Source of the DNA: Oscillospiraceae bacterium
GTDB taxonomy: Bacteria; Bacillota; Clostridia; Oscillospirales; Acutalibacteraceae
Assembly (NCBI GenBank): GCA_031269595.1
Contig: JAISYX010000053.1
Coordinates: forward strand, 1-64,000
Reading direction: 5' to 3'
DNA: 64,000 nt
Shown: positions 2,924-44,626 of the stretch, piece after piece
Position numbering within the stretch: the first letter of the stretch is position 1
Layout of the letters: every line of letters begins with the position of its first letter
Notes under the pieces: generated by a model
Database searches by the model: none
Told to the model about the DNA's origin: nothing
The model's input: only the letters and a program-made list of their open reading frames with translations
Made by a program: the position numbers and the translations under genes

Positions 2924-3400
2924 TTGATAAAGAAAAAGATTTTTGTTGGTATTTTTGTCGCTTTGATTTTTTGGGGCGCAGCATTTGGCGTCTCCAAGCT
3001 TATTCTAATGCTGGAAACGCAGTACCACAGCTCTTGGGTTAGTACAGAGGGAACCTTCCTAAAATACCAATATTCTTATGATAGCTATGGACATTATCAC
3101 TCCAGAGATTACAGGATGCATTATACATACACAGTAGACGGCACACGATATTACAACAGTGATATGTTTACAGGAACCCATTGGCCGCCCTATTCAGACC
3201 ATACCCAAGGGGAGATGTTGACTATATGGTATAGTCCATCTAAACCGGAAAATGGCTTTTGTTACAAGCCCACAGGTCAGATAGAATCTTCTCTTCCTTA
3301 TATATTTGCTTGGGTTTTCTTTCCAAAGGTGCTTGTCAAAGCTCTTAGACGTTACTTCGGCGACTCCAACACTATAAAACAGCCAACACTAAGGAGATAA
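2924..3400 (+). CDS. Small membrane protein, DUF3592-like
   Basis: This 158-residue protein has an N-terminal membrane segment (about 5-27) and a second hydrophobic segment near residues 126-140. The region between them is rich in Tyr, His and Ser and reads as a beta-rich domain (VDGTRYYNSDMF and GEMLTIWYSPSKPENG), which resembles DUF3592 proteins. The role is unknown. The start is TTG at 2924 with GGAAGG about 12 nt upstream. It sits 23 bp after mutS and 4 bp before mutL, so it should be cotranscribed with mismatch repair. Its aromatic, AT-richer composition differs from its neighbours, which suggests a later insertion into the operon. Confidence 0.6.
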   Translation: MIKKKIFVGIFVALIFWGAAFGVSKLILMLETQYHSSWVSTEGTFLKYQYSYDSYGHYHSRDYRMHYTYTVDGTRYYNSDMFTGTHWPPYSDHTQGEMLTIWYSPSKPENGFCYKPTGQIESSLPYIFAWVFFPKVLVKALRRYFGDSNTIKQPTLRR

Positions 3401-3404
3401 TCCT

Positions 3405-5351
3405 ATGTCAAAAATAACCCTACTAAACAAACACACAGCCGAGCTAATCGCCGCAGGAGAGGTTGTAGAACGTCCCGCCTCTGTGGTTAAGGAGCTGGTT
3501 GAAAACGCCATAGATGCCGGAAGCCGCAACATAACCATAGAGATTAAAAACGGCGGCGTTACCCTAATACGTGTAACAGACGACGGTGAGGGCATAGCCC
3601 GTGAGGACGTGCCCACGGCCTTTTTGCGCCATGCCACAAGCAAGGTGCACACAGAGCTGGATTTAGAGCATATAGCCACACTGGGCTTTAGGGGCGAGGC
3701 TCTGGCCTCTGTCTCTGCTGTTTCAAGAACCGAGCTGCTCACACGCAGAGCCGAGGAGCTTGCGGGCACTCATTATGTAATAGAGGGCGGCAGCGAGGCT
3801 CTGTGCGAGGATGCAGGCTGCCCTGTGGGCACAACTATTATGGTTAAGGAGCTGTTTTACAACACTCCCGCAAGAATGAAGTTCCTTAAAAAGGACGTTA
3901 CCGAAGCCAATGCAGTGGCCGCTGTGCTGGACAGAATAGCCCTCTCGCACCCTGAGATTTCACTTAGCTTTATCCGTGACGGCAAGGAGGCTCTCTCCAC
4001 CCCCGGCAGCGGCGATTTAAAGGCCTGTATTTATGCGGTTTTTGGCAAGCAGTTTGCCGAGGGGCTTATCCCGCTGGATTATAGCCTAAACTATCTGCGT
4101 GTGAGCGGATTTATCTCCAAGCCCCACTGTGCAAGGCCAAACCGCAGTATGCAAAACTTTTTTATTAACGGACGCTATGTTAAAAGCCGCACCATGCAGG
4201 TTGCTCTTGAAGAGGCCTTTAAACGCTCTATTATGGTGGGCAAGTTCCCCGCCTGTGCGCTAAATTTGGAAATACCCCTAGAGCTGGTTGATGTCAACGT
4301 TCACCCCGCCAAAACAGAGGTGCGCTTTGAAAATGAAAAGCCCGTTTTTGATGTGGTCTTCCACGGGGTCAAGGCTGCCTTGAATAAGGGCGATACCCCT
4401 CCCGAATTGCAGCTAAGCGGGCAGAGCAAGCCCAATTTGAGTTTGGATATGCTCAGCCAAAATAATCAATATGAACCTCCGGCTAAGCAAGGAGATTCCG
4501 CTCCTCCTTTAACGGCAGATCCGCTCCCCTTGGGGGATACCCTGCCTAAAGCAGAGCCTCAAAATCAGCAGTCACGCTTCCCTGATATTCCTATAGCGGA
4601 CATAATGCCGCCTAAATTGAGCTACAGCTCACGGCAGATAGGCACACTCAGGGACAGCACAGCCTTTGAATACCGCAGCGAGCCTGCGCCTCCTGCGCCG
4701 ACGCCGCCCCCCTCCCACGCTCCTGCTAATGAAGAGCCTGAGCAGCCCGCCATTCAGCCTGTTTTTGAGAGCTTTGACGCCGAGCCTGAGCCGCGCATTA
4801 TAGGCGAGGCCTTTGATGCATATATCATCATGGAGCTGCAAGGGGGTGTTTATCTTATTGATAAGCACGCCGCACACGAGCGTATGCTCTATGAGCAGCT
4901 TATTAAGGACTGTGACGAGGGGCAGATGCAGTATCTCCTTGAGCCTGTAACAGTGCGCCTTGAGAGGAACGAGTATAACGCAGTTATAGGCGACACAGAG
5001 CTGGCCGCTCAGGCGGGCTTTGAACTGGACGACTTTGGCGATGGCACTGTGCTTGTGCGGGCTATCCCGCCCATTTTGGCGGGGAGTGACATAGCCTCTG
5101 CGGTTATGGAGCTTGCGGGCTATCTCACGCAAAACAGGCAGAGCGTGCGCACAGAGCACCTTGAGTGGATTTACCACTCTATCGCCTGCCGTGCCGCCGT
5201 TAAGGCCGGCAACAAGAGCAATCCGGAGGAGCTTGCCGCCCTGGTGCGGGATTTGCTCAAGGAGCCAGAACTAAAGCACTGCCCACACGGACGGCCTATT
5301 TACGTCCTGCTGACAAAGCGGGAGATAGAGAAGAGGTTTGGCAGGCAGTGA
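3405..5351 (+). CDS. mutL: DNA mismatch repair protein MutL, endonuclease type
   Basis: MutL is the GHKL ATPase that links MutS to strand removal. The 648-residue protein has the N-terminal ATPase motifs (AGEVVERPASVVKELVENA, DDGEGI, GFRGEALAS), then a long Pro/Gln-rich linker at about 335-465, then the C-terminal dimerisation domain. The C-terminal domain carries DKHAAHERMLYE (near 485), matching the DQHA(x)2E(x)4E metal-binding endonuclease motif, and CPHGRP (near 626), both typical of MutL that nicks DNA itself. This fits a bacterium without MutH and Dam-directed repair. The ATG follows an AAGGAG site, and the TGA stop overlaps the miaA start. Confidence 0.97.
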   Translation: MSKITLLNKHTAELIAAGEVVERPASVVKELVENAIDAGSRNITIEIKNGGVTLIRVTDDGEGIAREDVPTAFLRHATSKVHTELDLEHIATLGFRGEALASVSAVSRTELLTRRAEELAGTHYVIEGGSEALCEDAGCPVGTTIMVKELFYNTPARMKFLKKDVTEANAVAAVLDRIALSHPEISLSFIRDGKEALSTPGSGDLKACIYAVFGKQFAEGLIPLDYSLNYLRVSGFISKPHCARPNRSMQNFFINGRYVKSRTMQVALEEAFKRSIMVGKFPACALNLEIPLELVDVNVHPAKTEVRFENEKPVFDVVFHGVKAALNKGDTPPELQLSGQSKPNLSLDMLSQNNQYEPPAKQGDSAPPLTADPLPLGDTLPKAEPQNQQSRFPDIPIADIMPPKLSYSSRQIGTLRDSTAFEYRSEPAPPAPTPPPSHAPANEEPEQPAIQPVFESFDAEPEPRIIGEAFDAYIIMELQGGVYLIDKHAAHERMLYEQLIKDCDEGQMQYLLEPVTVRLERNEYNAVIGDTELAAQAGFELDDFGDGTVLVRAIPPILAGSDIASAVMELAGYLTQNRQSVRTEHLEWIYHSIACRAAVKAGNKSNPEELAALVRDLLKEPELKHCPHGRPIYVLLTKREIEKRFGRQ

Positions 5352-17778: not shown

Positions 17779-19293
17779 TTGAACCAGTTTAAAATCAAGC
17801 TTAAAGCTTTTGCAAAAAAACCTCAGCTTGTTGCTGTTGCGCTGTTTTTTCTCCTATTTTTAATATTAGAGGCACTGTTTGTACCTGTAAATGACGATTG
17901 GTTATGGGGCTCTGTCTCTGGTATAGACTCCTTAAAAAATGGTTATGCCGAAGCTAGCTCACGCTATGTCAGTAACACTCTGCTTATTTTTCTTCTTAGA
18001 TGCCCGCCTGTCAGGATAATATTCTTTGCCACAGTTATGGCAGGGATTTTATATCTAATTTTAAAGCTTGTGCCTCAAACACCGCTCACTCCAATGCTTG
18101 TTGCAATTTTGCTGCTTTGTGTAAGCAGAGGAATTTTCCGTGAGGTTTATGCTTGGAGCTCAGGCTTTATAAACTACACTTTTTCAGTGTTTATCGACCT
18201 AGCATATATACTCTTTGCTAAATGGTGCTGGAAAAATGCTGTTCATACAGCAAAAAACATTAAGCTTGCCATAATAATTTTCATTCTCACTCTTCCAGCT
18301 CAGTTAATTTTAGAAATTTCAACGCTGTATATAGTAATGCTTTCATTTTTCTGTTTTGCTATATTTGGGCTTAAAAACAAAAAGATTCATTTACCTTTTC
18401 TTGCTTGGTTTCTTTCTTCCATAATCGGAATGCTTGTAATAATGCTACCATCGTTTAATAACACTATTTACAAAGAGTATCGCAGCATTACTATGCCCTT
18501 TGCAAACGGATTTAAAAGCGGGTTGCTGAATTTGGTAGAAGCTTCAATTTCTATGTTCACCTACGCCGTGCTTGGAAATGCTGTGATTTGGTCTATTCTT
18601 GCCGCACTATTTATAGTTCTGTTACACAAGCAATGGCGCAGCATATCTGGCTGGTTTAAAAAAGTTGCTCTTATTTTATCGGAGTTAATTCTTGCATTAT
18701 CAATAATCATATTTATTTTAAATGATATTTTCAATGTCTCTTACCCTTTGGTGCAAGCTTATAAAACATTAAAATATTTAAAATTTTATTTTGCCGCTTT
18801 TTTAGTTTTATTTATTTTCTTGTTTGTAATTTCTAAGCTGTTTATAAAAAGCCGAAAGATATACTTTTCACTTGTATCATGTGCTATATTTACATTACCG
18901 TATTTTGTGGTTTCGCCTTTTGCATGCAGAAGTTTTTTTGCAAGCTATATATTTTTTGTAATGATTTTTGCTGAACTGTTTCATTATATGTTTAAAGAGA
19001 AGCTTGCCAATTTCAACACCAAAAAGCTCTATGCTTCTTTGCTATCAATTTTTGCCGTTTTATCTGTAATGTTTGTATATATATATTCATTTTCACTACA
19101 CGAGTACACCGCAAGGAATAAATATATTTTTGCCGAGGCAAAAAAGGGCAGCAAAGAAATAACCATATCTACACTAAGGTTTGAATCTTTTTATCATACA
19201 CCAACCCCTTACGGACCATCAGGCGGCTATCTCCCCAGAGTTTTTAATGCCTATTACGGTTTAGATGAAGATATAAGATACATTATAGACTAA
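17779..19293 (+). CDS. Polytopic membrane protein, DUF6056-like
   Basis: This 504-residue protein has about 10-12 membrane segments, an NDDWLWG motif in the first outside loop, and REVYAWSSGFINY further on. The acidic first loop followed by many membrane helices is typical of GT-C-fold glycosyltransferase-like proteins such as the DUF6056 group; this is by resemblance only. It would act on a lipid-linked sugar at the membrane surface, which is inference. The start is TTG at 17779 with AAAGG 5 nt upstream. It lies 18 bp after rluD and 17 bp before the HAD gene. It is AT-richer than its neighbours. Confidence 0.6.
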   Translation: MNQFKIKLKAFAKKPQLVAVALFFLLFLILEALFVPVNDDWLWGSVSGIDSLKNGYAEASSRYVSNTLLIFLLRCPPVRIIFFATVMAGILYLILKLVPQTPLTPMLVAILLLCVSRGIFREVYAWSSGFINYTFSVFIDLAYILFAKWCWKNAVHTAKNIKLAIIIFILTLPAQLILEISTLYIVMLSFFCFAIFGLKNKKIHLPFLAWFLSSIIGMLVIMLPSFNNTIYKEYRSITMPFANGFKSGLLNLVEASISMFTYAVLGNAVIWSILAALFIVLLHKQWRSISGWFKKVALILSELILALSIIIFILNDIFNVSYPLVQAYKTLKYLKFYFAAFLVLFIFLFVISKLFIKSRKIYFSLVSCAIFTLPYFVVSPFACRSFFASYIFFVMIFAELFHYMFKEKLANFNTKKLYASLLSIFAVLSVMFVYIYSFSLHEYTARNKYIFAEAKKGSKEITISTLRFESFYHTPTPYGPSGGYLPRVFNAYYGLDEDIRYIID

Positions 19294-19310
19294 ATATTAA
19301 GGAGCAGCGA

Positions 19311-20129
19311 ATGTCAGCAAAATTTAAAGGATATTTACTAGCCGCAGATTTAGACGGCACTTCCATAACCTCAGATTTTATAATACCTCAAAGCAACCTT
19401 GAGGCAGTTGAATATTTCAAAAGTGAGGGCGGGCTTTTCACTGTTGCCACAGGCCGTTTTGCAGGCGGTGCAGAGCAATATGTCAAGCAGCTTAAGCCCA
19501 ATATTCCCTGTGTTATACTCAACGGGGCGGCTATATATGATTTTGAAAAGAACGAAATCATCTGGGATATGAACCTCCCTGAGGCATCTATTCAGTACAT
19601 GCAGGAGCTTACCCAACAATTCCCATCCTTGGGCCTTGAGATACTTGCGGGTAACGAGCTTTATGCAACCAAGAGTAATGAATTTATTGATATACATATG
19701 AAAAACGAGGATATTGAATACATCCCCGCAAGCTTTGAAACTGTCCCTAAGCCTTGGTACAAGGCTCTTTTTGCGGGTGCGCCTGAGGAGATAGACGCCA
19801 TAAGCGAGCACTGCAAAGCGGCTGTACACAGCGGCGTTCGCTATGTGCGCTCCTCCCCCAATTATTTTGAGATGCTCCCTGAGGGTGTCAACAAGGGCGT
19901 GGCGGTTAAGGTTCTGGCCGAAAGATACGGCATAGAGCACAGCAAGCTCTGCTGCATAGGCGATTTTTACAACGATGTTGAAATGCTTGAGGAGGCTGGC
20001 ATAAGCGCAGCCACAGCCAACGCCCCTCAGGAGCTTAAGGCTTTAACCACTGTTACTGTTTGCCATTGTAATCAAGGCGCAATAGCTGCCTTTGTAAAAT
20101 ATATAAATGAAACTTTGGAGGTTATATAA
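19311..20129 (+). CDS. Cof-type HAD-superfamily phosphatase
   Basis: The 272-residue protein has the HAD nucleophile motif AADLDGTSI near the N-terminus, a VATGR motif, a Lys in NKGVAVKVLAERYGI, and the C-terminal acidic motif CIGDFYNDVEML. The C2-type cap between them identifies the Cof subfamily, which hydrolyses small sugar phosphates or related metabolites. The actual substrate cannot be predicted. Start ATG at 19311 with AAGGAG. The stop shares one base with the start of the next gene (ATAATGG), so it is tightly coupled to the transketolase genes and may serve the same sugar-phosphate metabolism. Confidence 0.88.
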   Translation: MSAKFKGYLLAADLDGTSITSDFIIPQSNLEAVEYFKSEGGLFTVATGRFAGGAEQYVKQLKPNIPCVILNGAAIYDFEKNEIIWDMNLPEASIQYMQELTQQFPSLGLEILAGNELYATKSNEFIDIHMKNEDIEYIPASFETVPKPWYKALFAGAPEEIDAISEHCKAAVHSGVRYVRSSPNYFEMLPEGVNKGVAVKVLAERYGIEHSKLCCIGDFYNDVEMLEEAGISAATANAPQELKALTTVTVCHCNQGAIAAFVKYINETLEVI

Positions 20130-24294: not shown

Positions 24295-27200
24295 TTAAAC
24301 CCTTTTAATATGGGGGAAGTTATAAAATGCCGGTCCTTCGGCAATAGAGAAGGCCTGCTCGCAGCTTAAGGCCATTGCACACCATGCACACAGGGTGTCG
24401 CTTAGCAAATCCTCAGGGGGAATGCCGTAATTCCTGCGCTCACGCCTTAATATTTCGTAAATAAGGTTGATTACAGGCACAAGAGCTATGAGCTCCTGCT
24501 GCAGCGAAAGCAAGCTTGCAAGGGGCATATTGGGCACTTGAGTTTGCGCAAAGAAGAGGTACTCCTGCTCCACAGGTATAAACAAGCCCTGATTAACCGG
24601 CGTGCCGCACAGTGCGGGGAACATATTATCTGAGCGATAAGAGAGCCTGTTTTGGCTGTGAACATAATCTGCCGCCATTAACAGCTCATCCTCGGTGATG
24701 TTGGTTAAATCCTTGCCCTTTTGACGCACTATATCGCCGCATGTCCACGCCATAGAGCGCAGTGTGGTTAACTGCTCATAACGCCTTAAAACCCCGTTAA
24801 ACAACTCAGCTTCAACGTCGTTATTGGCTACAAACTGCATTTCTGCCACATGATAGATAGAGGAATAATACTCTGCCGCCTCATGCAGGAATTGGCTGGC
24901 CTGATTTTTGGCAGATTCCAGCACAAAGTTAAGCTCATCACGCAGATAATCTGCCGTAACGGGAGCAAAGCAAAGCTCCGGCTTTAGGGGCGGTTTTTTG
25001 TTGTTTTGCTCATAGTCAAAATCCACCAGAGGGTCTGCTATGTCATCAAGCTCCGGCTCACCATTGGGAGCAGCAGCGGCGTTCATGCTGCGCTTATTTA
25101 CGCCCTCAGCAAGCGAGATTCTGCTGTGCTTAACAAACTCTGCATTAATATCCTTGTAGTTAAGTGCCTTTAAGGCGTTGCCGTTGGGTATCATTCTGCT
25201 GCGGGAGGCAAAGCACCTGTGTATGACCTCCTCAGGTCCAAGATAGGCACTCTTAACCAGCTTGGTAAACACCAGCAGAGGCCAGCCGCAATTGGCTAAA
25301 TCACCGTCTCCTATTGCGTCTGCCGCACCCTGCAGCACACGCTCACGTGTTTTTGCATCAAAACCCCTGAGTATCATGCCCAGGCTTTGTATTTCTACAT
25401 CCAAATTAGCTCCCTGCTCAGGCAGCCATGCGCTCTGGCTCTGCTCATAGGTAAAGCGAATGTTGGGCAGTATCCTAAGGATATGCCGCCGCACCTGCCC
25501 CAGAGCATAACGCTTGCCGTGCTGATGGAACAGCAGAGTTAAAAGGTGCATGACCATTTCAACCTCTGTATCAAGGAAGTAGAGGTGCACGTTTTCAACC
25601 AGCTGCTCATGCAGCGGGGAGCTTGCCGCAAAGCGGTTTTCAAAATCCTCAGCCGCACCGCAGCTAAGCCATAGGATGTTTGCACTCTCGCCGTAGATTC
25701 TGTTCATAACAGTGCGGCGTATCTCTGTTGCCGTGGGCGTTTCATACTGAGAGACCCGACAAATCTTCTCAAAGGCCTGAATAAGCAGCCAGTGCACCTT
25801 TTTGCCCGCCTTTGCAATAACGGCGGCGCATTCGGTGAGGTGGTCCATTGGGTCGGGGTGATAGCGGCCTGAGGGTGCGGGATACTGGGCGTCAAAGGAG
25901 ATATAAACATCATCCAGCACAGCCATAAGGGCATTTTCGGCTATGGTGTAATCATATAGGCCGTTGTGGTAGGCATATAGCTTGAGTGCGGTATACACCG
26001 CCTCCTGAACCACATATTCATCCTCTGTAAGGCAATAAACCTCATCTGTATTATAGGGTGTTAACAGGCGGGTAAAGTCTGTAAAATCCTCCTGCGGGGC
26101 AGCCGAGCGCAAAATCTGCCTGCGGGTTTCGGTGTCCCCAAGCATGATATAATCGTTATCGTTAACCCTCTCTAGGCTTCCGTCCTCTGCCCTGTATATA
26201 AACACATCAGAGCTAACAGGGTGCTCATAGGGCTCGTCCTCTACATACACGGTGCAGTTGTAATCCCTTATTAAATCCAGCATGGCCTTTACGCCCTCAA
26301 AGCTGTATTTATCAATATAAACTATTTCACGGCACGGCATACCAAAAATTAAATCTCTGCCGCCGGAGAGCCTTGCCAGCAAATCCTTGCGGAACACTAC
26401 ATAATCGGCTAAATCATGCTGAATAAAGCGGTAGGGCGTGGTGTCCACCGAGGCAAAGACATACTTAACCTTATATTTTATATCAGCCATGTTATTTTCG
26501 GCTGCACGCCACACAGTTGCAGCGTCTATTCCCCAGTCAGATAGGGTTCGCTGCTCTACATACAAAAACCCAAGCTGTGAATCTATAACAAGAAACTCCA
26601 GCAAATTAGGCTCAACCTCACGTGTTACCAAATGGGCTGTATCCTCATAAAAGCGGTTGTCGCTAAGCTCTATATAAAGGCTTCCGCTTAAAGCCTGAAA
26701 GGTAAAATGAGAGAAGCCCACCCTTTCAAGTGTCTTGTAAAAGGGGTAGTTTTCGTTGGCATAAACATTAACTCTGCCCAGCTTATTCTCAAAGGGAACT
26801 ATTCTATAGCTGATTTTTTGGTTGGGGTCAACCTTTTTGAGTATCTCCTTGCTACGCAGGAACTCCGTGTACTCATACTCGCTTAAATCGCCGAATATGG
26901 TGTCGCACAGAGTAAGCAGGAACTCCTTAAAGCTCTCCTCATCCTCTAGGGTAGAAAGGCGGTATTGGCACTGCTCATAGGCAAAATTAAGGAGCTTGCG
27001 CTTAACGGCTGTCTCCGCTTTAACCGCAAAGGCAAAGAGCTTGGACTTCATGTCTGAATCTGCTCCGCCTAAAACGCTGGAGGAAAACTGCGCCATAGCA
27101 GAGGCATCCTTGATTGTTGCCTCGGGATACAGCTGCAAAAAGGTGCTTGAAAGCTCCGCAAAGCTGAGTGCCTCATCTGAGACATTGCGCTTGATATACA

Positions 27201-29487
27201 ACAGCATACCCATTACGCCTGTGCGAATGGCCTTTATTTCATCCTCGCTCAGCTCTTGTATTGGCTCTGCCTCTGCCTCCTTAATTATGGGTGGTGCAGA
27301 GTAGTCCTCCTTAACAGCCTCCTGCCTTGGCCTTGCAGCCGCAGGGGGTGAGAAGTCCGGCAGTCGCACATCCTCCGGTGAGAGAGGCCTCTCGTGCTTA
27401 ATTGCAGGTGTAAATATATCGGCAGGCTCTTCGGGGCTTGGCTCTTCCTCATATTCCTCCTGATATTCCTCTTCAGGCAATTCTATCGGCTGCACAGCCC
27501 TTGCGTTTATGGTAACAGTTCTTCTGGCCTTGGGTAAGGAATCCTTTTTAGCAAGGAGATTTTCAAGCCTTGCGTCAAAGGAATCTACCTCTGTGCTGTT
27601 AAACATAGGCAGAAGCAGTTCACGCAGGGGCAGCAGAACCTCACGCAGAACCTCATTTTGCTCTTCAAAATTATAATGATAAAACAGCACACGCCACGCA
27701 AGCTTGGTTAAAAATAGCTTGTCGCCCAAATGGGAAGAGCGCACTGTGCCCGCAAGCAGCTTTTCGCCGCTGGGCTTGCCTTTAAGCTCCCTTGCGTTTG
27801 CAAGCAGGCTCTCTATTTTCTCCTTATCCATGCCCGGATACAGCTCTTTAATGTCTGAATAATAGTCCTCTACAGGTAAAGAATCCTGATTATAGACCAT
27901 TAGATAGGCCTTTTCTAAAAATAGCATGGCCGCCCCTTGGGCTTCCTCAGGTGTTATTTTTGGCTCTCTAAACTCAGCAGGATACACCACACCCTGACGG
28001 CTGGCCGCGAGGCGCACAGCATCCCAATTGAAGGTTGAGAGCAGGGAAAAGTCTGAAAAATCTATGTTTTTATCGGTAAAATCGGCGTTTTCAATGTCAA
28101 ATTGGGGCGGATATATGAGCTTTTGCAGGTTTATTGCCTTTATAATATGCCCAAAACGCAGACCTTCTACTCTGCTAAAATTGCAGCCTTGAATATCCAG
28201 CGCAGAAAAATCTGCATTTTCTGAGTCGAATTCACGTGGGAATTTAACTCCCTTAATGCTTGCGGCGAACTTAATGTGCTCCCACCTGAGGCCGTGCACA
28301 CGTGTAAAGTCACTCTCGCCTATGTCACGCCCCGCATAATCGGAGTTCTCAACATCAAAATTATAGGGATAAATAAGGCCGAAGAGGCTTTTGGCAAACT
28401 TGATGCTCTCCCATTTTAAAGCAGATAGCAATGAAAAATCACTTTCAGCAATATCTCTTCCGCTAAATTCCGCCTCGCCTATTTCAAAGCCTGCGGGATA
28501 GCGAATAGCCTTAAGCTCCGCCGCTTTTTTGATATGCTCCCATTTAAGAGCCGTAACCATGCTAAAATCCGAACCGTTTATCACACGCCCTGTGAATCGG
28601 GCGGCGTCAATGTCAAAGGTTGGTGGATATTTTATTGCAGTTATGTCGCCTGCGTTTTCAATGTGCCGCCAGCGCAGGGCATAGACAGCCGAAAAATCAC
28701 AGCCTGAGATATTGCGGTTAAAAAACTCGGCATTTTCAACATCAAAGCCCGATGGAAAAACCAAGCCCATAATGTTTGAGGCCTTGCTGATATGCTCCCA
28801 GCGCAAGCCCTCAACCAGGCTAAAATCGCTGTAATCAATGTTTCTGCCTGTAAAATCGGCATTTTCTATATCAAAATCAGCGGGGTATTTTATTCCGTAT
28901 AAATCCTTGTTATCCTTAACCTGCTCCCACCTTAGGTTCTTGTGCGCACTAATATCGCTAAAGGAGATAGACGAGGTAAGCAGGGGCTTTTTGCTGCTCT
29001 TCTTGGTTTTTTTGCTAAGCTCTGCCTTGGCCTTGCGGTGGCTTTCGGCCTTTTCTTTATTGGGCAGACTGACCTTATCGGCAGAGTCAAATATAGTTGA
29101 GAGTGAGGCCATATCCTCATTTAAATTGCCCAGCTTGTTTTTTAGGTCGTCCAGCCTTTTGTGCTTTTCAGAATAAGCTATTACAGGCTTAAAATTCGGC
29201 GGAGTATCCGCCCTTGCAGGGCTTGGAGCCGGTGCCGGAGCCGGCTCTTCCTTTGCCTCCGGAGCTTCCTGCACAGGCGGAGGGGCAGCCTTGCCAAACC
29301 TCTGGGCAGGAGAAGAACTAAAGCCCGAAGCCTTAGGCGGCACATTGCCGCCCTTAGCTTCAGGCATATTTAAAAAGAAAGAACGCCTTGGCCCCGCCGA
29401 TATATTGGGGGATGTAATTCTCGAAGCTTCCTCCGCTTCCAAGGTTTCTTGATTAAGATTTTGAGCATTCTGTTTGAAAAACGCCAT
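24295..29487 (-). CDS. Unrecognised 1730-residue protein with seven 43-residue repeats
   Basis: Not assigned to a known family. No signal peptide or membrane segment is seen, so it is probably cytoplasmic. Residues 1-180 are Pro/Ala/Lys-rich and disordered. Residues about 185-486 hold seven full 43-residue repeats plus part of an eighth (pattern L-R/K-W-E-x-I ... YPxxFDxENADFxGRxI ... SDFS), partly like pentapeptide repeats. An acidic Pro/Glu linker lies near 665-760. Residues about 905-1110 loosely resemble DUF1444/DUF5688 proteins (DWGIDAATVWRAAENN, then RDLIFGMPCREIVYI). The last 600 residues are helical and unplaced. It lies 40 bp downstream of a PP2C gene and 26 bp before a deacetylase. 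A scaffold role is speculation. Confidence 0.75.
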   Translation of the reverse strand: MAFFKQNAQNLNQETLEAEEASRITSPNISAGPRRSFFLNMPEAKGGNVPPKASGFSSSPAQRFGKAAPPPVQEAPEAKEEPAPAPAPSPARADTPPNFKPVIAYSEKHKRLDDLKNKLGNLNEDMASLSTIFDSADKVSLPNKEKAESHRKAKAELSKKTKKSSKKPLLTSSISFSDISAHKNLRWEQVKDNKDLYGIKYPADFDIENADFTGRNIDYSDFSLVEGLRWEHISKASNIMGLVFPSGFDVENAEFFNRNISGCDFSAVYALRWRHIENAGDITAIKYPPTFDIDAARFTGRVINGSDFSMVTALKWEHIKKAAELKAIRYPAGFEIGEAEFSGRDIAESDFSLLSALKWESIKFAKSLFGLIYPYNFDVENSDYAGRDIGESDFTRVHGLRWEHIKFAASIKGVKFPREFDSENADFSALDIQGCNFSRVEGLRFGHIIKAINLQKLIYPPQFDIENADFTDKNIDFSDFSLLSTFNWDAVRLAASRQGVVYPAEFREPKITPEEAQGAAMLFLEKAYLMVYNQDSLPVEDYYSDIKELYPGMDKEKIESLLANARELKGKPSGEKLLAGTVRSSHLGDKLFLTKLAWRVLFYHYNFEEQNEVLREVLLPLRELLLPMFNSTEVDSFDARLENLLAKKDSLPKARRTVTINARAVQPIELPEEEYQEEYEEEPSPEEPADIFTPAIKHERPLSPEDVRLPDFSPPAAARPRQEAVKEDYSAPPIIKEAEAEPIQELSEDEIKAIRTGVMGMLLYIKRNVSDEALSFAELSSTFLQLYPEATIKDASAMAQFSSSVLGGADSDMKSKLFAFAVKAETAVKRKLLNFAYEQCQYRLSTLEDEESFKEFLLTLCDTIFGDLSEYEYTEFLRSKEILKKVDPNQKISYRIVPFENKLGRVNVYANENYPFYKTLERVGFSHFTFQALSGSLYIELSDNRFYEDTAHLVTREVEPNLLEFLVIDSQLGFLYVEQRTLSDWGIDAATVWRAAENNMADIKYKVKYVFASVDTTPYRFIQHDLADYVVFRKDLLARLSGGRDLIFGMPCREIVYIDKYSFEGVKAMLDLIRDYNCTVYVEDEPYEHPVSSDVFIYRAEDGSLERVNDNDYIMLGDTETRRQILRSAAPQEDFTDFTRLLTPYNTDEVYCLTEDEYVVQEAVYTALKLYAYHNGLYDYTIAENALMAVLDDVYISFDAQYPAPSGRYHPDPMDHLTECAAVIAKAGKKVHWLLIQAFEKICRVSQYETPTATEIRRTVMNRIYGESANILWLSCGAAEDFENRFAASSPLHEQLVENVHLYFLDTEVEMVMHLLTLLFHQHGKRYALGQVRRHILRILPNIRFTYEQSQSAWLPEQGANLDVEIQSLGMILRGFDAKTRERVLQGAADAIGDGDLANCGWPLLVFTKLVKSAYLGPEEVIHRCFASRSRMIPNGNALKALNYKDINAEFVKHSRISLAEGVNKRSMNAAAAPNGEPELDDIADPLVDFDYEQNNKKPPLKPELCFAPVTADYLRDELNFVLESAKNQASQFLHEAAEYYSSIYHVAEMQFVANNDVEAELFNGVLRRYEQLTTLRSMAWTCGDIVRQKGKDLTNITEDELLMAADYVHSQNRLSYRSDNMFPALCGTPVNQGLFIPVEQEYLFFAQTQVPNMPLASLLSLQQELIALVPVINLIYEILRRERRNYGIPPEDLLSDTLCAWCAMALSCEQAFSIAEGPAFYNFPHIKRV

Positions 29488-29527: not shown

Positions 29528-30979
29528 CTAATTCTGCTCCTCGGGCTTTTCTGTAACAACAGGCACAACAGTGGTGGTTGCAGCTTGCTTTGTTGTGATT
29601 TTTGCCTCTGCTGTTGTGGTGGTTTTAGTGGTTGTCTTCTTTGTTGTGGTAACAGCAGGTGCAACCACACGGCATTCAACCTCGCACCAGCCGCCATCGC
29701 CGTATTCGGGAGTTACCGTAATTCTTGCAGAGCCGGCCTTGCTGCCCATTTTTACTATACCGTTTTCGTCCACTGTAGCAACGGCTGTGTTGCTGGACTT
29801 CCACTTAAGCTTGCCTGTATCTGCGCCCTCAGGCTTAACCGTAAACTTTGTTTTAAGGTTGAGAGTTTCGCCCGGGTCAAGGGTGAATTTATCTTTACCG
29901 GCTGGGAAGCCCACCTTAGTGGCCTTAACTTCTGATGAGGAGGAAACCTCCTCGCTGCTAACATCTTCCTCACTGGAGACCTCGTCAGATTCAAGCTCTT
30001 CACTGGAGACAGGCTCTGAGCTTATGGTAGTTTGGCTGCCCTTGCCCTCTACGCCGTATACGGCAGAGCCATAAATATAGCCCACCAAATAGCCCAGCGC
30101 AAAGCCTACTATAAGAATAATCAGGCCTATTATGCCCATTATCATGCTGCTTGTAATTTGAACCTTTTGCTTAGAGACATGCACCACAACAACAGACATA
30201 GAATCCCTGCTGCTGTTCATCTCCGCCGCCTTGACAATCTCTGAGCACTGCACAAAGGGGTCTTTGTTTGCGGCCAGCTTATCGTCTAAAGCACTGTCCT
30301 CAACATAATCAGAGACACCGTCGCTTACAATAAGGAATCTGTCCCCTGCCTGAATGGGAATAGGCTTTGCCCTAAAGGGCACAAGCTCCCTCTCATTATC
30401 ATAAATGCCAAGGAACTGCGAAACCTTGTTATCAAATGAGGAATCCGTCTGCTCGCCCCTTCTGGGGAGATGGTCACGGGTTACCTGAATAAACTCGTCC
30501 TCACGCTGGAGGTAGATTCTTGTATCGCCTAAATTATAAATATGTGCTGTTTCGTTTTCAATAACAAGCAGAGCCAGAGTGGTTGCACTGCGCACACCAA
30601 GCTTTTGTGAGCGCATACCTATGGCCTCGTTGACGTCATTGATATATTCCAGCACTATTTCGTCTGCGTCAACTCCGCCCTCGCCGTTTAAGTCCTCAAA
30701 CAGACTGCTTAGCTCAACAACAGCAAGCGAGGAGGCCTCGCTACCAGAATTGCTCTTGCCCATGCCGTCACAAACAGCAAAAACATTGGCTGTTAGAGGC
30801 TTGCCGGATTTAATCTCGTAAACCTCGTCTAGGTGCGCCTCCTGAATATAATCTCCGTTAAAAAAGATATTATCCTCGTTAGCACGGACATCGCTGCCCT
30901 TGCACTTGGCTGCTGCACGGATTATCAATGGCTTTTCGCTCTTAGTATTTTCGCCCTTATTCTTTTTCAAAGATTTCAC
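29528..30979 (-). CDS. Membrane PP2C-type Ser/Thr phosphatase with extracellular Big_2 domain
   Basis: The 483-residue protein has an N-terminal PP2C catalytic domain (1 to about 265). Metal-binding motifs are RANEDNIF, FAVCDGMGKSNSG, NLGDTRIYL and FLIVSDGVSDYV. One membrane segment follows (about 275-297), then a Ser/Glu-rich spacer, a Big_2-type immunoglobulin-like domain (KLKWKSSNTAVATVDENG, then GSARITVTPEY) and a Thr-rich tail. Phosphatase inside and adhesive or sensor domain outside suggests envelope-responsive dephosphorylation. No Ser/Thr kinase is in the window. The start is GTG at 30979; TTG at 30970 has the better spacing to GAGGTG. Confidence 0.88.
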   Translation of the reverse strand: MKSLKKNKGENTKSEKPLIIRAAAKCKGSDVRANEDNIFFNGDYIQEAHLDEVYEIKSGKPLTANVFAVCDGMGKSNSGSEASSLAVVELSSLFEDLNGEGGVDADEIVLEYINDVNEAIGMRSQKLGVRSATTLALLVIENETAHIYNLGDTRIYLQREDEFIQVTRDHLPRRGEQTDSSFDNKVSQFLGIYDNERELVPFRAKPIPIQAGDRFLIVSDGVSDYVEDSALDDKLAANKDPFVQCSEIVKAAEMNSSRDSMSVVVVHVSKQKVQITSSMIMGIIGLIILIVGFALGYLVGYIYGSAVYGVEGKGSQTTISSEPVSSEELESDEVSSEEDVSSEEVSSSSEVKATKVGFPAGKDKFTLDPGETLNLKTKFTVKPEGADTGKLKWKSSNTAVATVDENGIVKMGSKAGSARITVTPEYGDGGWCEVECRVVAPAVTTTKKTTTKTTTTAEAKITTKQAATTTVVPVVTEKPEEQN

Positions 30980-33060: not shown

Positions 33061-35271
33061 TTATTTCCAAGTATATCCGCTGGGCAAGGTGTATTTGTTA
33101 GAGCCATCCTTTTTATAATCACCCTTGGTAAACATCTCCGCCTCGTCCATTCTGCGGTAGTACAAGCCCGACCAACGTTGATTGCCTGCCAGAGTATAGC
33201 GGCTCAAGCCCTCTTGAATATACGCCGCAGGCACGTTAGAGCCAATTCTAAAGGCCGTCAGCGAGCCTTTAATGTAGGTCATATTATTCCATATGCTTGT
33301 GCCCTGATTAAAGGTAAAGCTCACAAGGGCGTCAAACTGCTGCTGGTTGAGAGTGAGCCTTTCAGTAATTGCAAATTTTCTTACAGCCGGAGCATAAACC
33401 TCGTTTAAATCCTTGTTAAGCAAAGCCTCGGCTTCGGCCTGAGTAAGCCCCGCCGCTGGGAATTTATCATCACTCGTTACAAGATGTCCATAGCCTATTG
33501 TAACAAAGCCTGCGTCATCCTTATATGGGGTGAAGGTGCCGCTTGAATTTGCACCGCCCTCATAGGCCTTAAGAAAGCTAATAAGATTAGCCGAGGGTGC
33601 AAGAGCGTTGATTGCAGCTGTGTTATCCCCTGACTTTTCAAGATAAACCACCAGTGTATAGGAGGCTGTTCTGCCACCTGAGGTTTTTGCTGTGATAGTT
33701 ACCAAGCCTGCGCCCACGCCTGTGACCTTGCCGCTGTTATCAACTGTGGCAATAGAGGTGTTGGCACTGGTGTAGCTTAGACCTGCAACGCCGCTTTCGG
33801 CAATAGCAACTGTTGCGCTGCTGCCCTTTTGCACCTGCCCATATTCGGAGCTAAAGGAGATTGCAGGACCTTGGGAATCCACACGCACATTGGTTATATA
33901 CTGCGAGCTGGCATAGCCCTTAACCTTTCCTGCTGTTACCTGATACCAGCCTGAGGTCTCGCCTGTAATGCCTAAGGTTGCGCCGTTTGCAGCCGAAGAG
34001 AGCACACTGGCTGTTGCATTTGCACTCGACCTTATATTCAGCACACCTGAGCTGAGCTTAACTGTGCCTATATACGATTTAGAGGTGTCGCTAAAATCTA
34101 TGTTATTTACTGTCTGACTTTGAGCGGTAGTTGTTGGGGGAGCGGTGGTTTTAACTGTTGTTGTGACAGTTGTGGTTGCAGGAGGCGGCGAAACCTGAAT
34201 ATACTGTGCGTTGACATAGCCTGTAACCGTTGAATATTTAATTTTGTACCAATCACCGCTGGTTTCTAAAATGGTGACAGTATCGTTCTTATGAAGAACA
34301 TCTACCACTGTACCCTTAGTGTTGGCACTTGAGCGCACATTGAGCGAGGCTGTAGTCACCTTGCCTATGCTGCCGGACTGAACCGCAGGCTTAGTTGTGG
34401 TAGTTACAGGAACAGTGGTTACAGTCGGGGTGTTGACAACAACAATATATTGACTGCTTACATATCCATAGTCATAGCCTACACCGCTAAGCTTGATTTT
34501 ATGCCATCCGTTTGAGGTGCTGGCTATAGTTACCAGAGTATCCTTTTTAAGGGTAGTTATAACCTTTGCGCTTGTTGATCCTGAAACACGCACGTTAAGC
34601 AGGGCAGTGTTAACCTTGCCTGTTTTTGAGCCGGCCGCCACTGTGGTGGTTTTGGTTGTAGTTGCCCCTGCCTTGGTTGTAGTGGCTGTGGTTGAAGAGA
34701 GCTTTATGTAATCCTTTGAGCCGTAGCCCTCCTTGCCGTTTGCAAGCTTTATTTTATACCAGCCGTTAGAGGTCTTTGCGGTTAAATTAAGGCTATTCCC
34801 CTTAACCGCCGTGGTGAGCTTGGCATAGCTTGTCCCCGGGCCGGAGCGTATGTTAAGCACAGCAGTTGTAACCGTGCCTGTAGTTCCTGCTGTCAGGGCG
34901 GTTTCACTGGGCTTGTCTTTATCTGTTGTGCCTGTGGTTGAATCTGCCTTAGGGGCGGACTTGTCCATTAGCTTTTTATATGTTGCGTCGCCCACTATAC
35001 CGTCTTGAGTAAGCTTAGCCTTCTTTTGAAAGGCCTTAACGGCTGCACTTGTCTTAGGGCCAAAAACGCCGTCTGCCTTGCCTGTGAGATAGCCCAGCTC
35101 AATTAATCTTTTTTGAACCTTTGTAACTGTATCCCCTTTTGAGCCCTCCTTGACTGAGACAGCCAGAGTGCGTATACCCACATTTACGGCGGGTTCTGCA
35201 GCTTGCAGGCTTAATCCGGCTATGAATAACAAGCATATGATAATACTCAATGCTATCTTTTTAGTGTGCAT
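33061..35271 (-). CDS. Secreted GH24 lysozyme with peptidoglycan-binding, SH3 and Big_2 domains
   Basis: The 736-residue protein has a signal peptide (1 to about 25), a peptidoglycan-binding domain (about 38-108; VQKRLIELGYLTGKADGVFGPKT) and four to five SH3b repeats (LNIRSGPGTSYAKLT, LNVRVSGSTSAK, LNVRSSANTKG, LNIRSSANATAS) joined by Thr-rich linkers. A Big_2-like domain (about 475-550) precedes a GH24 muramidase (about 560-736) with the catalytic Glu in FLKAYEGG and the conserved TIGYGH and QQQFDALVSFTFN. It likely cleaves the cell's own peptidoglycan. ATG with AAAGGAG. The domain set is that of host autolysins, not phage endolysins alone. Confidence 0.9.
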   Translation of the reverse strand: MHTKKIALSIIICLLFIAGLSLQAAEPAVNVGIRTLAVSVKEGSKGDTVTKVQKRLIELGYLTGKADGVFGPKTSAAVKAFQKKAKLTQDGIVGDATYKKLMDKSAPKADSTTGTTDKDKPSETALTAGTTGTVTTAVLNIRSGPGTSYAKLTTAVKGNSLNLTAKTSNGWYKIKLANGKEGYGSKDYIKLSSTTATTTKAGATTTKTTTVAAGSKTGKVNTALLNVRVSGSTSAKVITTLKKDTLVTIASTSNGWHKIKLSGVGYDYGYVSSQYIVVVNTPTVTTVPVTTTTKPAVQSGSIGKVTTASLNVRSSANTKGTVVDVLHKNDTVTILETSGDWYKIKYSTVTGYVNAQYIQVSPPPATTTVTTTVKTTAPPTTTAQSQTVNNIDFSDTSKSYIGTVKLSSGVLNIRSSANATASVLSSAANGATLGITGETSGWYQVTAGKVKGYASSQYITNVRVDSQGPAISFSSEYGQVQKGSSATVAIAESGVAGLSYTSANTSIATVDNSGKVTGVGAGLVTITAKTSGGRTASYTLVVYLEKSGDNTAAINALAPSANLISFLKAYEGGANSSGTFTPYKDDAGFVTIGYGHLVTSDDKFPAAGLTQAEAEALLNKDLNEVYAPAVRKFAITERLTLNQQQFDALVSFTFNQGTSIWNNMTYIKGSLTAFRIGSNVPAAYIQEGLSRYTLAGNQRWSGLYYRRMDEAEMFTKGDYKKDGSNKYTLPSGYTWK

Positions 35272-41832: not shown

Positions 41833-42717
41833 CTAGTACTGATCTTCAAACTTGCTTTGAAAGGCATAGAAGTTTTGGGCTATAACAGGCGCATAAAAGC
41901 GTTGTTTGCCGTATTTTATAAGCAGCTTACCACTTAAAGACCTTTTTACCTTTACATCCTTATATGGTATTTCATATGTCCTGCCAAAGGCTGTTCTGTA
42001 CAAAAATGTATGCTCACGCAGCTCTATTTCAAAGTTGATTACTCTTACTATAACACCTATACAGAATATCATAAATGCAAGAATTACAGACATTATAATG
42101 GCATAATCCAAAAGCTCGCCTTCTTCTACAAAGTTTACATCGGTTATCATGTTGTAAAGGATAATCCCCAACAATGCAATGCAGACTGCACCTCCAAAGG
42201 CACTAAGCCATGCTATTGCCTTATGTATCCTTACAAAATAGTTTGTGTTCTTGTTGTTCTTTATAAGTTCATACAGCTTTTCTCCGTGTACAGAGTACCG
42301 TGTAATTGAAAATCTTTTATTATTGCAAGCCAATAGCATTATCCAGTGATTCCAATGCTCGACGTAAATATCTTTTATGGGGAACCTATGCTTTTTGCCA
42401 AATTCACCCCTATAGTTGAGGTATTCGCCGTCTATTTCTATTTTATAATTAAGGTAAATAGCACACAACATAATTCCCAGAAGAGAGAAAGCCCAAGCAA
42501 ATATGGACATAAAAAGCTCCTCCTCTGTTGCATTAATAGTATTAACAAAGGCAACAACGCAACATAACATGGTATTTGCAACACCAAACCAATAAATCCA
42601 TCGGGCATACCTAACAACATTAGGTTTAACCTTTATAGCAAAGCAAATACCCAAAATAATAAGCACTGAGTTAACAACAACGCTTACCCAAATAATAACA
42701 GTTTGCAGCATAGACAT
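41833..42717 (-). CDS. Membrane protein, paralogue 1 of 3 (DUF6560-like)
   Basis: This 294-residue protein has three N-terminal membrane segments and a soluble motif block (YKIEIDGEYLNYRGEFGKKHRFPIKDIYVE). Two more membrane segments follow (about 165-235), then a second copy of the block (INFEIELREHTFLYRTAFGRTYEIPYKDVKVKR) and a final FYAPVIAQNFYAF. The internal duplication of a small PH-like strand motif is clear. The function is unknown; DUF6560 is a resemblance only. ATG with GGAGGTG about 9 nt upstream. Same strand as its two paralogues upstream. Confidence 0.65.
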   Translation of the reverse strand: MSMLQTVIIWVSVVVNSVLIILGICFAIKVKPNVVRYARWIYWFGVANTMLCCVVAFVNTINATEEELFMSIFAWAFSLLGIMLCAIYLNYKIEIDGEYLNYRGEFGKKHRFPIKDIYVEHWNHWIMLLACNNKRFSITRYSVHGEKLYELIKNNKNTNYFVRIHKAIAWLSAFGGAVCIALLGIILYNMITDVNFVEEGELLDYAIIMSVILAFMIFCIGVIVRVINFEIELREHTFLYRTAFGRTYEIPYKDVKVKRSLSGKLLIKYGKQRFYAPVIAQNFYAFQSKFEDQY

Positions 42718-42789
42718 AACAGTACACCTCCGTAGTTAATTCGTAATTAGGCTGTTTGTGCGCATTTTCTCAACAGTTAGAGCCTAATA

Positions 42790-43692
42790 TTATCCATCGG
42801 ATATAGCCTCTCTTTTTTTCTCTTGTTCCTCTTTAACTTTCGCAAGCTTTATATAAAACACTTGAAAGTTCTTTGCCTCTGTTAGTGCATAAAAGCGTTT
42901 TTGGCCGTATTTAAACACAAAATTGCCGTTTATCACCCTTTTTATCTCTATCTCTTCATATGGTATTTCATATTCATTTGCAAAGGCTGTGCGGTATATA
43001 ATGGTATGCTCACGCAATTCTATTTTGAGGTTAATTGAACGTATAGAAAGGCACAACACGTTCAAAACAACAAGAGCAACCATTGCGTAAACTATAATAT
43101 CATACAAACCGAATCCCTGCATTTGCGTAAGAAAGAACCACGAGACAAACCATATAGAAAGAGCACTCATCACAAGAAAAAACAATTTATACCATATGGA
43201 GAATTTAACAATATTACGTGGAAAAGGGCACTCATTGTTTTCAACAAGTTCAATTAACTTTTTTGTTTTATCTGAATTCACTATAGGGATACGCCTTTTG
43301 CCGCAGGCTAACCTAGTCCCACCGTAGACGTAACGGTCAATATAAACATCTTTTATAGGGAATCTATATTTTATTCCAAATTGATTGCGGTAGTTGAGGT
43401 ATTCGCCGTCAATTTCTATTTTGTAGTTAAAGTGCATAACGCACAAAAATATGCCCACTACAGAAAATAAAAGAAGCGGAATAGCAAATATCCGTTCATA
43501 GTCTTCACCCGCAAATGCCAACAAAATCGCCATAGCACATATTGCGAACGTACACACTACACCTAGCCAATACACAACCTTTGTATTCCTTATAACATTA
43601 GCCCCTTCATCCCCTTTTGCCTTTATGCCTATTATTATAAGCACCAAAAGCATTGCAACACTTATTGCAGTAACCAAAATTTGTATAAGCAT
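42790..43692 (-). CDS. Membrane protein, paralogue 2 of 3 (DUF6560-like)
   Basis: About 300 residues from the ATG at 43692, which has AGGAGAG about 7 nt upstream; a longer frame to 43779 overlaps the next gene and lacks a site. It has the same layout as paralogue 1: YKIEIDGEYLNYRNQFGIKYRFPIKDVYID, then two membrane segments, then IELREHTIIYRTAFANEYEIPYEEIEIKR and RFYALTEAKNFQVFYIKL. It differs by a charged C-terminal tail. Confidence 0.65.
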   Translation of the reverse strand: MLIQILVTAISVAMLLVLIIIGIKAKGDEGANVIRNTKVVYWLGVVCTFAICAMAILLAFAGEDYERIFAIPLLLFSVVGIFLCVMHFNYKIEIDGEYLNYRNQFGIKYRFPIKDVYIDRYVYGGTRLACGKRRIPIVNSDKTKKLIELVENNECPFPRNIVKFSIWYKLFFLVMSALSIWFVSWFFLTQMQGFGLYDIIVYAMVALVVLNVLCLSIRSINLKIELREHTIIYRTAFANEYEIPYEEIEIKRVINGNFVFKYGQKRFYALTEAKNFQVFYIKLAKVKEEQEKKREAISDG

Positions 43693-43723
43693 GGTAAGCT
43701 CTCCTTTGCGATTTATTGAAATA

Positions 43724-44626
43724 TCAATCGTTTTCTTCCTCGCTATTTGCTGCAAGCTTTTCCAGCAAAACCTCAACATTTTTTGCCTCTGAGTTTAAAT
43801 AAAACTTTTTGCCATTACATGTAAGAATCAGCAGCACACTTATTTTACCCGTGATTTTAATTTCGTCTATGTGCAGCTTGTAAACATTGCCAAAGCTTGT
43901 AGTGTAGTTAATGTGCTCGCCCTCTATTTCGATTCTAAAATTCTTAGCCTGTAAAAAGCCAAAAATGCCAATTGCGCCAAAGAGCATAGATAGAATGCAC
44001 AGCATCAGCTGTTCCGGCAGCTCTAAGCCCTCAGAAAAAATGAGCACCATAACACCTCCAATTGCACCCGCAAGCAAAACCAAGGAAGCCCAAAATTCTG
44101 ATTTAGCAATGGTAATCACATTGGATTTAGCCTTTGATTCTTTGGATGTAATAGACATGGGGTTCTCTGCAACCAACTCCAGCAGCCGCTCCCTATTTTT
44201 GGCGTATTCTAAAGGGATACGTTTTTTGCCGCATTGCAGTTTTACTCCGTATCTGGTATAGCCTTTAATGTAAATATCCTTTATTGCATATCGGCCTTTT
44301 GCGCCAAACTCGCCTCTATAGTTAATGTATTCGCCGTCTATCTCTATTCTATACAGATGCGCCATTACACAAAGGAGCACGCACATAGAATCGGCCGCCA
44401 GAAAGAAAAGTGACAGCCAAGCCTCATCTTCAGCTGCGGTAAATGCGCACAAAACAGCTATGGCGCAAATCCCCAATGAGCACACAAGCCCAGCCCAATA
44501 AAACCACACAGCATACCTAATAACATTAGGATTACTCTCTTTTCTAACACGGCAAATCCCCAAAATAAGCAGCACAGAGTTAATAAGCACACTAACCCCA
44601 ACAACAACAGCTTGCAACAAAGACAT
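43724..44626 (-). CDS. Membrane protein, paralogue 3 of 3 (DUF6560-like)
   Basis: About 300 residues from the ATG at 44626 (GGGAGGGG about 6 nt upstream). It has YRIEIDGEYINYRGEFGAKGRYAIKDIYIK and the second block IEIEGEHINYTTSFGNVYKLHIDEIKI, with EAKNVEVLLEKL at the end. It is the most diverged of the three and the first in the transcript. It lies 68 bp downstream of polC, so could receive read-through from the polC operon. Confidence 0.65.
   Translation of the reverse strand: MSLLQAVVVGVSVLINSVLLILGICRVRKESNPNVIRYAVWFYWAGLVCSLGICAIAVLCAFTAAEDEAWLSLFFLAADSMCVLLCVMAHLYRIEIDGEYINYRGEFGAKGRYAIKDIYIKGYTRYGVKLQCGKKRIPLEYAKNRERLLELVAENPMSITSKESKAKSNVITIAKSEFWASLVLLAGAIGGVMVLIFSEGLELPEQLMLCILSMLFGAIGIFGFLQAKNFRIEIEGEHINYTTSFGNVYKLHIDEIKITGKISVLLILTCNGKKFYLNSEAKNVEVLLEKLAANSEEEND

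Follow-up and report, generated by a model that had tools for sequence, protein, structure and literature searches.

The giant protein encoded at positions 24295..29487 (minus strand) of the window, by which we mean the whole 64,000-nucleotide stretch analysed, probably works at the cell membrane, in a signalling unit of its own with the PP2C phosphatase encoded directly upstream of it. In our main reading, to which we assign a probability of roughly 50%, the giant protein serves this membrane phosphatase as a dedicated partner in the cytoplasm and acts as a phospho-regulated hub that binds client proteins. More tentatively, and at less than even odds, the pair may represent a new phosphosignalling unit, in which a PP2C anchored in the membrane, with an Ig-like domain outside the cell, is matched with one obligate giant hub and no dedicated kinase is encoded at the locus. 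The solenoid of such a hub would be a composite, LRR/pentapeptide-like one, its TerB-fold domains would be duplicated, and its C-terminal effector module, marked by an invariant D-E-H-H helix, would be new.

The open reading frame of the giant protein has an ATG start and, including its stop codon, fills the interval given above, corresponding to 1730 amino acids. Relatives were detected at 22 loci in a scan of genome contigs, and 20 of these have a full-length open frame. One orthologue (L029:9359-15454) has no single open frame though the match spans the length of the gene, which points to a frameshift or assembly error. All orthologues come from uncultured rumen or gut genomes of the Oscillospiraceae/Ruminococcus type, and the protein is present in 13 of 398 genomes of the same family. 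The orthologues form four divergent groups, with 43-56% identity between groups, and as judged from these alignments the giant protein belongs to a fixed orthologous family. Searches of Pfam (E<=1), NCBIfam, PADLOC and PDB sequences assigned no family to the copy in the window, and PHROGs returned chance-level matches only. We looked for copies on plasmids, phages and viral contigs and found none, and a mobile, phage or plasmid origin was rejected on this ground.

The PP2C gene (29528..30979, minus strand) lies directly upstream of the giant gene, on the same strand, at every one of the 23 loci (the window and 22 others), with an intergenic distance that is mostly 27-104 bp and about 250-265 bp in two cases. 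The upstream PP2C is constant, whereas the giant gene has at least eight different downstream contexts across lineages. Among 240 sampled genomes of the family, a full-length phosphatase with transmembrane segment and Big_2 domain is found in eight (G000, G011, G036, G045, G117, G195, G201 and G276), which are exactly the eight sampled carriers of the giant protein, and in none of the 232 others. In the search with the full-length PP2C model, the score falls from 397 to 175 bits at the next match, which spans the PP2C domain only. No genome that we checked had the giant protein or the full-length PP2C alone. Because co-occurrence is exact in the 240 genomes, we conclude that the two are inherited as a unit, although co-occurrence by itself is no proof of contact between them. 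A literature search, of incomplete coverage, found no paper describing such a phosphatase-giant pair.

The predicted architecture of the phosphatase consists of a PP2C domain, one transmembrane segment, an extracellular linker and the Big_2 domain. The motifs D36, DGMG, GD[ST]R, SDG and D259, which include the metal-binding aspartates, are invariant in the alignment and apparently intact, and every copy has one strongly hydrophobic transmembrane segment. From the sequence, the catalytic domain is predicted to lie inside the cell and Big_2 outside. The core corresponds to PF13672 and scores 97.4 bits against NF033484, under the Stp1 equivalog cut-off of 230 bits. Like Stp1/PrpC-type phosphatases, the partner has a PP2C core with apparently intact motifs, but unlike them it carries a transmembrane segment and an outside Big_2 domain, and is paired with a giant protein, not a kinase. 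The PrkC-type pair of this genome is a separate locus, on contig C92. PADLOC profiles gave no match at E <= 1 for either the giant protein or the PP2C, and we rejected membership in a known anti-phage defence system for this reason.

The neighbours described in the first-pass annotation, namely the PP2C with its transmembrane segment and Big_2 domain, a polysaccharide deacetylase and a "kinase-like" protein encoded upstream, are all present in the window, but the last of these contains HATPase_c, a histidine-kinase-like ATPase domain, and is not a Ser/Thr kinase. The deacetylase gene begins 8 bp past the end of the giant gene, and the two may be co-transcribed in this genome; terminator and promoter scans gave no information on operon borders. 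Around the other orthologues, flanking sequence of up to 10 kb contains no counterpart of the deacetylase, HATPase protein or lysozyme. The proposed cluster of wall enzymes is therefore rejected. A modular wall hydrolase at 33061-35271 (minus strand), which joins a peptidoglycan-binding domain to four bacterial SH3 domains, a stretch resembling Big_2 and a lysozyme domain of phage type, is seen in this neighbourhood only. Elsewhere in the window, G+C content is low at 42001-44000 (0.36) and 18001-20000 (0.38), compared with about 0.47 around them, and these stretches are possible recent acquisitions.

A Ser/Thr-kinase HRD motif, in the form searched, occurs nowhere in the window. The genome as a whole contains five Ser/Thr kinase-domain matches, none of them in the window, and five PP2Cs, with kinase-PP2C pairs on contigs C23 and C110 in addition to the PrkC-type pair. 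Several of these kinases have their own adjacent PP2C, and kinases are thus available elsewhere in the genome. Another PP2C gene lacking an adjacent kinase (L114:4511-6993, minus strand, contig C9) lies beside that of a DUF6382-FHA protein, and is a further orphan phosphatase module.

In eight loci, a zinc-ribbon, PASTA-domain protein kinase homologue is encoded 3-9 kb downstream of the giant gene (L030:23926-25607, plus strand; L027:18512-20329, minus strand; L019, L025, L026, L031, L033 and L035), and the window's own genome encodes one on contig C55:1-925 (L115). Since this homologue lacks the HRD catalytic aspartate and has HFGxxPE instead, it is probably a pseudokinase. It may participate in the pathway, or its position may merely reflect shared gene order.

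The N-terminus of the giant protein (residues 1-170; 28978..29487, minus strand) is of low complexity and probably disordered, and has a conserved MAxFK start. It is followed by a repeat region (residues 185-507; 27967..28935, minus strand) that consists of seven exact, gapless 43-residue units at residues 185-485, with part of an eighth following at 486-506. The repeats share a mean pairwise identity of 45.5% (range 35-53%), compared with a mean of 6.3% and a maximum of 9.4% in 2000 shuffles, and 43 is the only period between 15 and 69 that exceeds background. The open reading frame and these statistics bear out the original description of a 1730-residue protein with seven 43-residue repeats. 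Across the 21 family members aligned, the 323 columns of the repeat block contain no insertion or deletion, and between species equivalent repeats are 54% identical, as against 43% for non-equivalent ones, which places the setting of the repeat number before the split of these lineages. On this evidence, the block is an old and fixed feature, and its set repeat number favours a constant binding surface over an array for variable recognition.

An AlphaFold2 model of residues 170-665, based on 21 sequences, has a pLDDT of 85.5, with values mostly of 85-97 in the repeats. The modelled solenoid matches many LRR chains with Z up to 19.1 (VIA), but Z-scores for solenoids and helical bundles are easily inflated, and our statements on LRR and TerB resemblance refer to overall fold only. 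Foldseek alone found nothing significant for the repeat model in PDB or viral libraries. Weak matches to Pentapeptide (PF00805) are present in 20 of 21 members, with a best E of 1.8e-5 and an E of 0.99, below the cut-off, for the copy in the window; LRR families in Pfam gave no match at E <= 10 in the 21 members. We describe the region as a predicted LRR-like solenoid with a pentapeptide-like consensus. It resembles LRR and pentapeptide-repeat solenoids in predicted fold and in the weak Pentapeptide match of most orthologues, but its 43-residue unit appears to make two coils, and the protein in the window is under every Pfam cut-off.

Two helical domains with a TerB-like fold are predicted after the solenoid, at residues 508-650 (27538..27966, minus strand) and 746-885 (26833..27252, minus strand), joined by an acidic, proline-rich linker whose length varies between species (residues 651-745; 27253..27537, minus strand). 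For the first, the model of residues 512-647 matches 2h5n (chain A) with Z 10.1 and rmsd 3.4 over 113 residues. The second was modelled separately (residues 747-880, pLDDT about 80), and its top two matches are 2h5n (Z 8.1) and 2ou3 (Z 6.7), a tellurite-resistance COG3793 protein. These Z-scores are moderate for helical bundles. Compared by profile, the two domains are similar as well (hhalign prob 66.5, E 5e-5), whereas all other pairs of regions have E >= 0.07. TerB-fold proteins (PG1108, structure 2h5n, and COG3793, structure 2ou3) are thus the best match for both domains, although neither has a detectable TerB sequence profile: Pfam (PF05099) gives no match, hhalign of both domains against a TerB alignment gives a probability below 1%, and Pfam TerB is absent from 60 relatives. 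Membership in the TerB family by sequence is therefore not supported, and our claim concerns the fold. Both the predicted solenoid and the TerB-fold domains resemble modules used for interactions.

The earlier view of the C-terminal half as a long helical stretch without a nameable family captures part of what we find. Two strongly conserved regions indeed have no assigned family, but this half is more than a tail: besides the second TerB-fold domain and a candidate DUF5688-like one, the protein's best conserved stretches lie here. The suggestion of a loosely DUF1444-like middle is supported at the profile level. Residues 928-1081 (26245..26706, minus strand) align collinearly with DUF5688 over 154 columns (hhalign prob 57%, E 1e-4), where E-values are pairwise and are judged against other regions of the same protein, all with E >= 0.04. 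As a positive control, DUF1444 against DUF5688 gives E 7e-7, and a small DUF1444 alignment against the giant protein reaches only E 0.05. Unlike DUF1444 (YtpQ/CgoN) and DUF5688 proteins, this candidate domain escapes HMMER detection of either family, covers part of the profile and is embedded in a giant protein.

Residues 1136-1460 (25108..26082, minus strand) form a helical region within the best conserved part of the protein, with the motif RSRxIP...YKDxNxEFxKH. D1306, E1310, H1314 and H1321, which make up a D-x3-E-x3-H-x6-H segment, are invariant in 21 of 21 aligned members. Modelling of residues 740-1730 gave a poor result (pLDDT 48) that is usable only at residues 747-880 and for which Foldseek returned nothing meaningful. 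A C-terminal domain at residues 1505-1729 (24301..24975, minus strand) recurs in a 1213-amino-acid protein from another family of the order, whose gene adjoins MoxR AAA and DUF2201/VWA-like genes. This protein (genome G066, L013:4592-8233, minus strand) has a weak BRCT match, and its neighbours (including L013:1-825 and 3126-4577) are MoxR AAA, DUF2201/VWA-like, WYL, exonuclease and UvrD-like genes; we found no match of this MoxR-VWA cluster to a described system.

The phosphatase-giant pair is invariant and includes no kinase, and in the simplest reading the giant protein works in the cytoplasm as the phosphatase's dedicated partner. An outside cue, sensed by Big_2 or by a protein bound to it, would alter the activity or position of the PP2C, which would be anchored in the membrane, its catalytic domain on the inner side. 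The giant protein would serve as the hub, with the repeat solenoid and two TerB-fold domains holding client proteins; the fixed repeat number argues for fixed partners. Its conserved C-terminal half would be the effector part, whose state would depend on phosphate being added by one of the genome's Ser/Thr kinases and removed by this PP2C. The data show the gene pair and its co-occurrence; physical contact, phosphorylation of the giant protein, the direction of the signal and the identity of kinase and clients are the steps that we infer. Counting against the hub are the lack of a kinase in the conserved pair and the failure to find a phospho-binding domain such as FHA in the giant protein.

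The closest rival to the hub is a regulatory or targeting subunit, comparable to eukaryotic phosphatase targeting subunits, in which the giant protein would not be a substrate but would hold the PP2C and bring it to other phosphoproteins. Strict one-to-one pairing with the PP2C and the solenoid and TerB-fold modules fit this role too, and sequence cannot separate the two readings. Bacterial PP2Cs usually work without large subunits, however, and the conserved region at residues 1136-1460 suggests an effector activity of the giant protein's own, and we regard a targeting role as unlikely. The poor model of residues 740-1730 means that the effector part could be catalytic, and the giant protein might then be an enzyme switched by the PP2C, with the DUF1444-like domain or the invariant D-x3-E-x3-H-x6-H segment as a catalytic or metal site. 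In Priestia megaterium, YtpQ (DUF1444) is reported to be an FAD-dependent coproporphyrinogen III oxidase (PMC10965808), which counts in favour of this reading, but the DUF5688/DUF1444 match is distant and partial, too distant for that function to be transferred, and the model is too poor to reveal a pocket. Despite the invariance of the four residues, we find an enzyme very improbable.

TerB-fold domains in the giant protein, and a C-terminal domain shared with a protein encoded beside MoxR AAA and DUF2201/VWA genes, raise the prospect that the pair belongs with stress systems of the Ter or MoxR-VWA type, as a Ter-like module for envelope stress or phage conflict, and TerB is present in the phage-defence systems Shango and Bunzi (PMC10952713). 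The lack of a TerB profile link, of a PADLOC match and of copies on plasmids, phages or viral contigs makes this doubtful, as does the occurrence of the protein as a conserved family, not in defence islands, with no support from its neighbourhood. The first-pass annotation had instead proposed a cytoplasmic scaffold coupling a phosphorylation signal to wall modification, which would now act through the deacetylase and wall hydrolases. Its tie to the membrane PP2C stands (23 of 23 loci; 8 of 8 carriers against 0 of 232 other genomes), and the modules of the giant protein look suited to interaction. The coupling to the wall is not supported: probable co-transcription with the deacetylase, 8 bp away, applies to this genome, and none of the other orthologues has a deacetylase, HATPase protein or lysozyme nearby, making this the least probable of the readings considered.

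Compared with Ter-dependent, TerY-P and MoxR-VWA stress systems, as they are generally known, the giant protein and its phosphatase share the linkage of a PP2C to a large multi-domain protein with TerB-fold parts and a C-terminal domain common to a MoxR/VWA neighbourhood, but the conserved pair includes no TerD, TerC, VWA or MoxR gene. One kinase-PP2C-VWA linkage is described in a published account (PMC7159879).

If the PP2C and the giant protein interact, they would be a defined case in which signalling centred on a phosphatase can be tested, and would connect TerB-fold domains with Ser/Thr phosphoregulation; a function would also be gained for a family that the domain libraries used here all fail to recognise. 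A bacterial PP2C is mostly seen as the partner of a kinase. In these uncultured bacteria of rumen and gut, evolution has instead bound a phosphatase with an external domain to a single giant protein.
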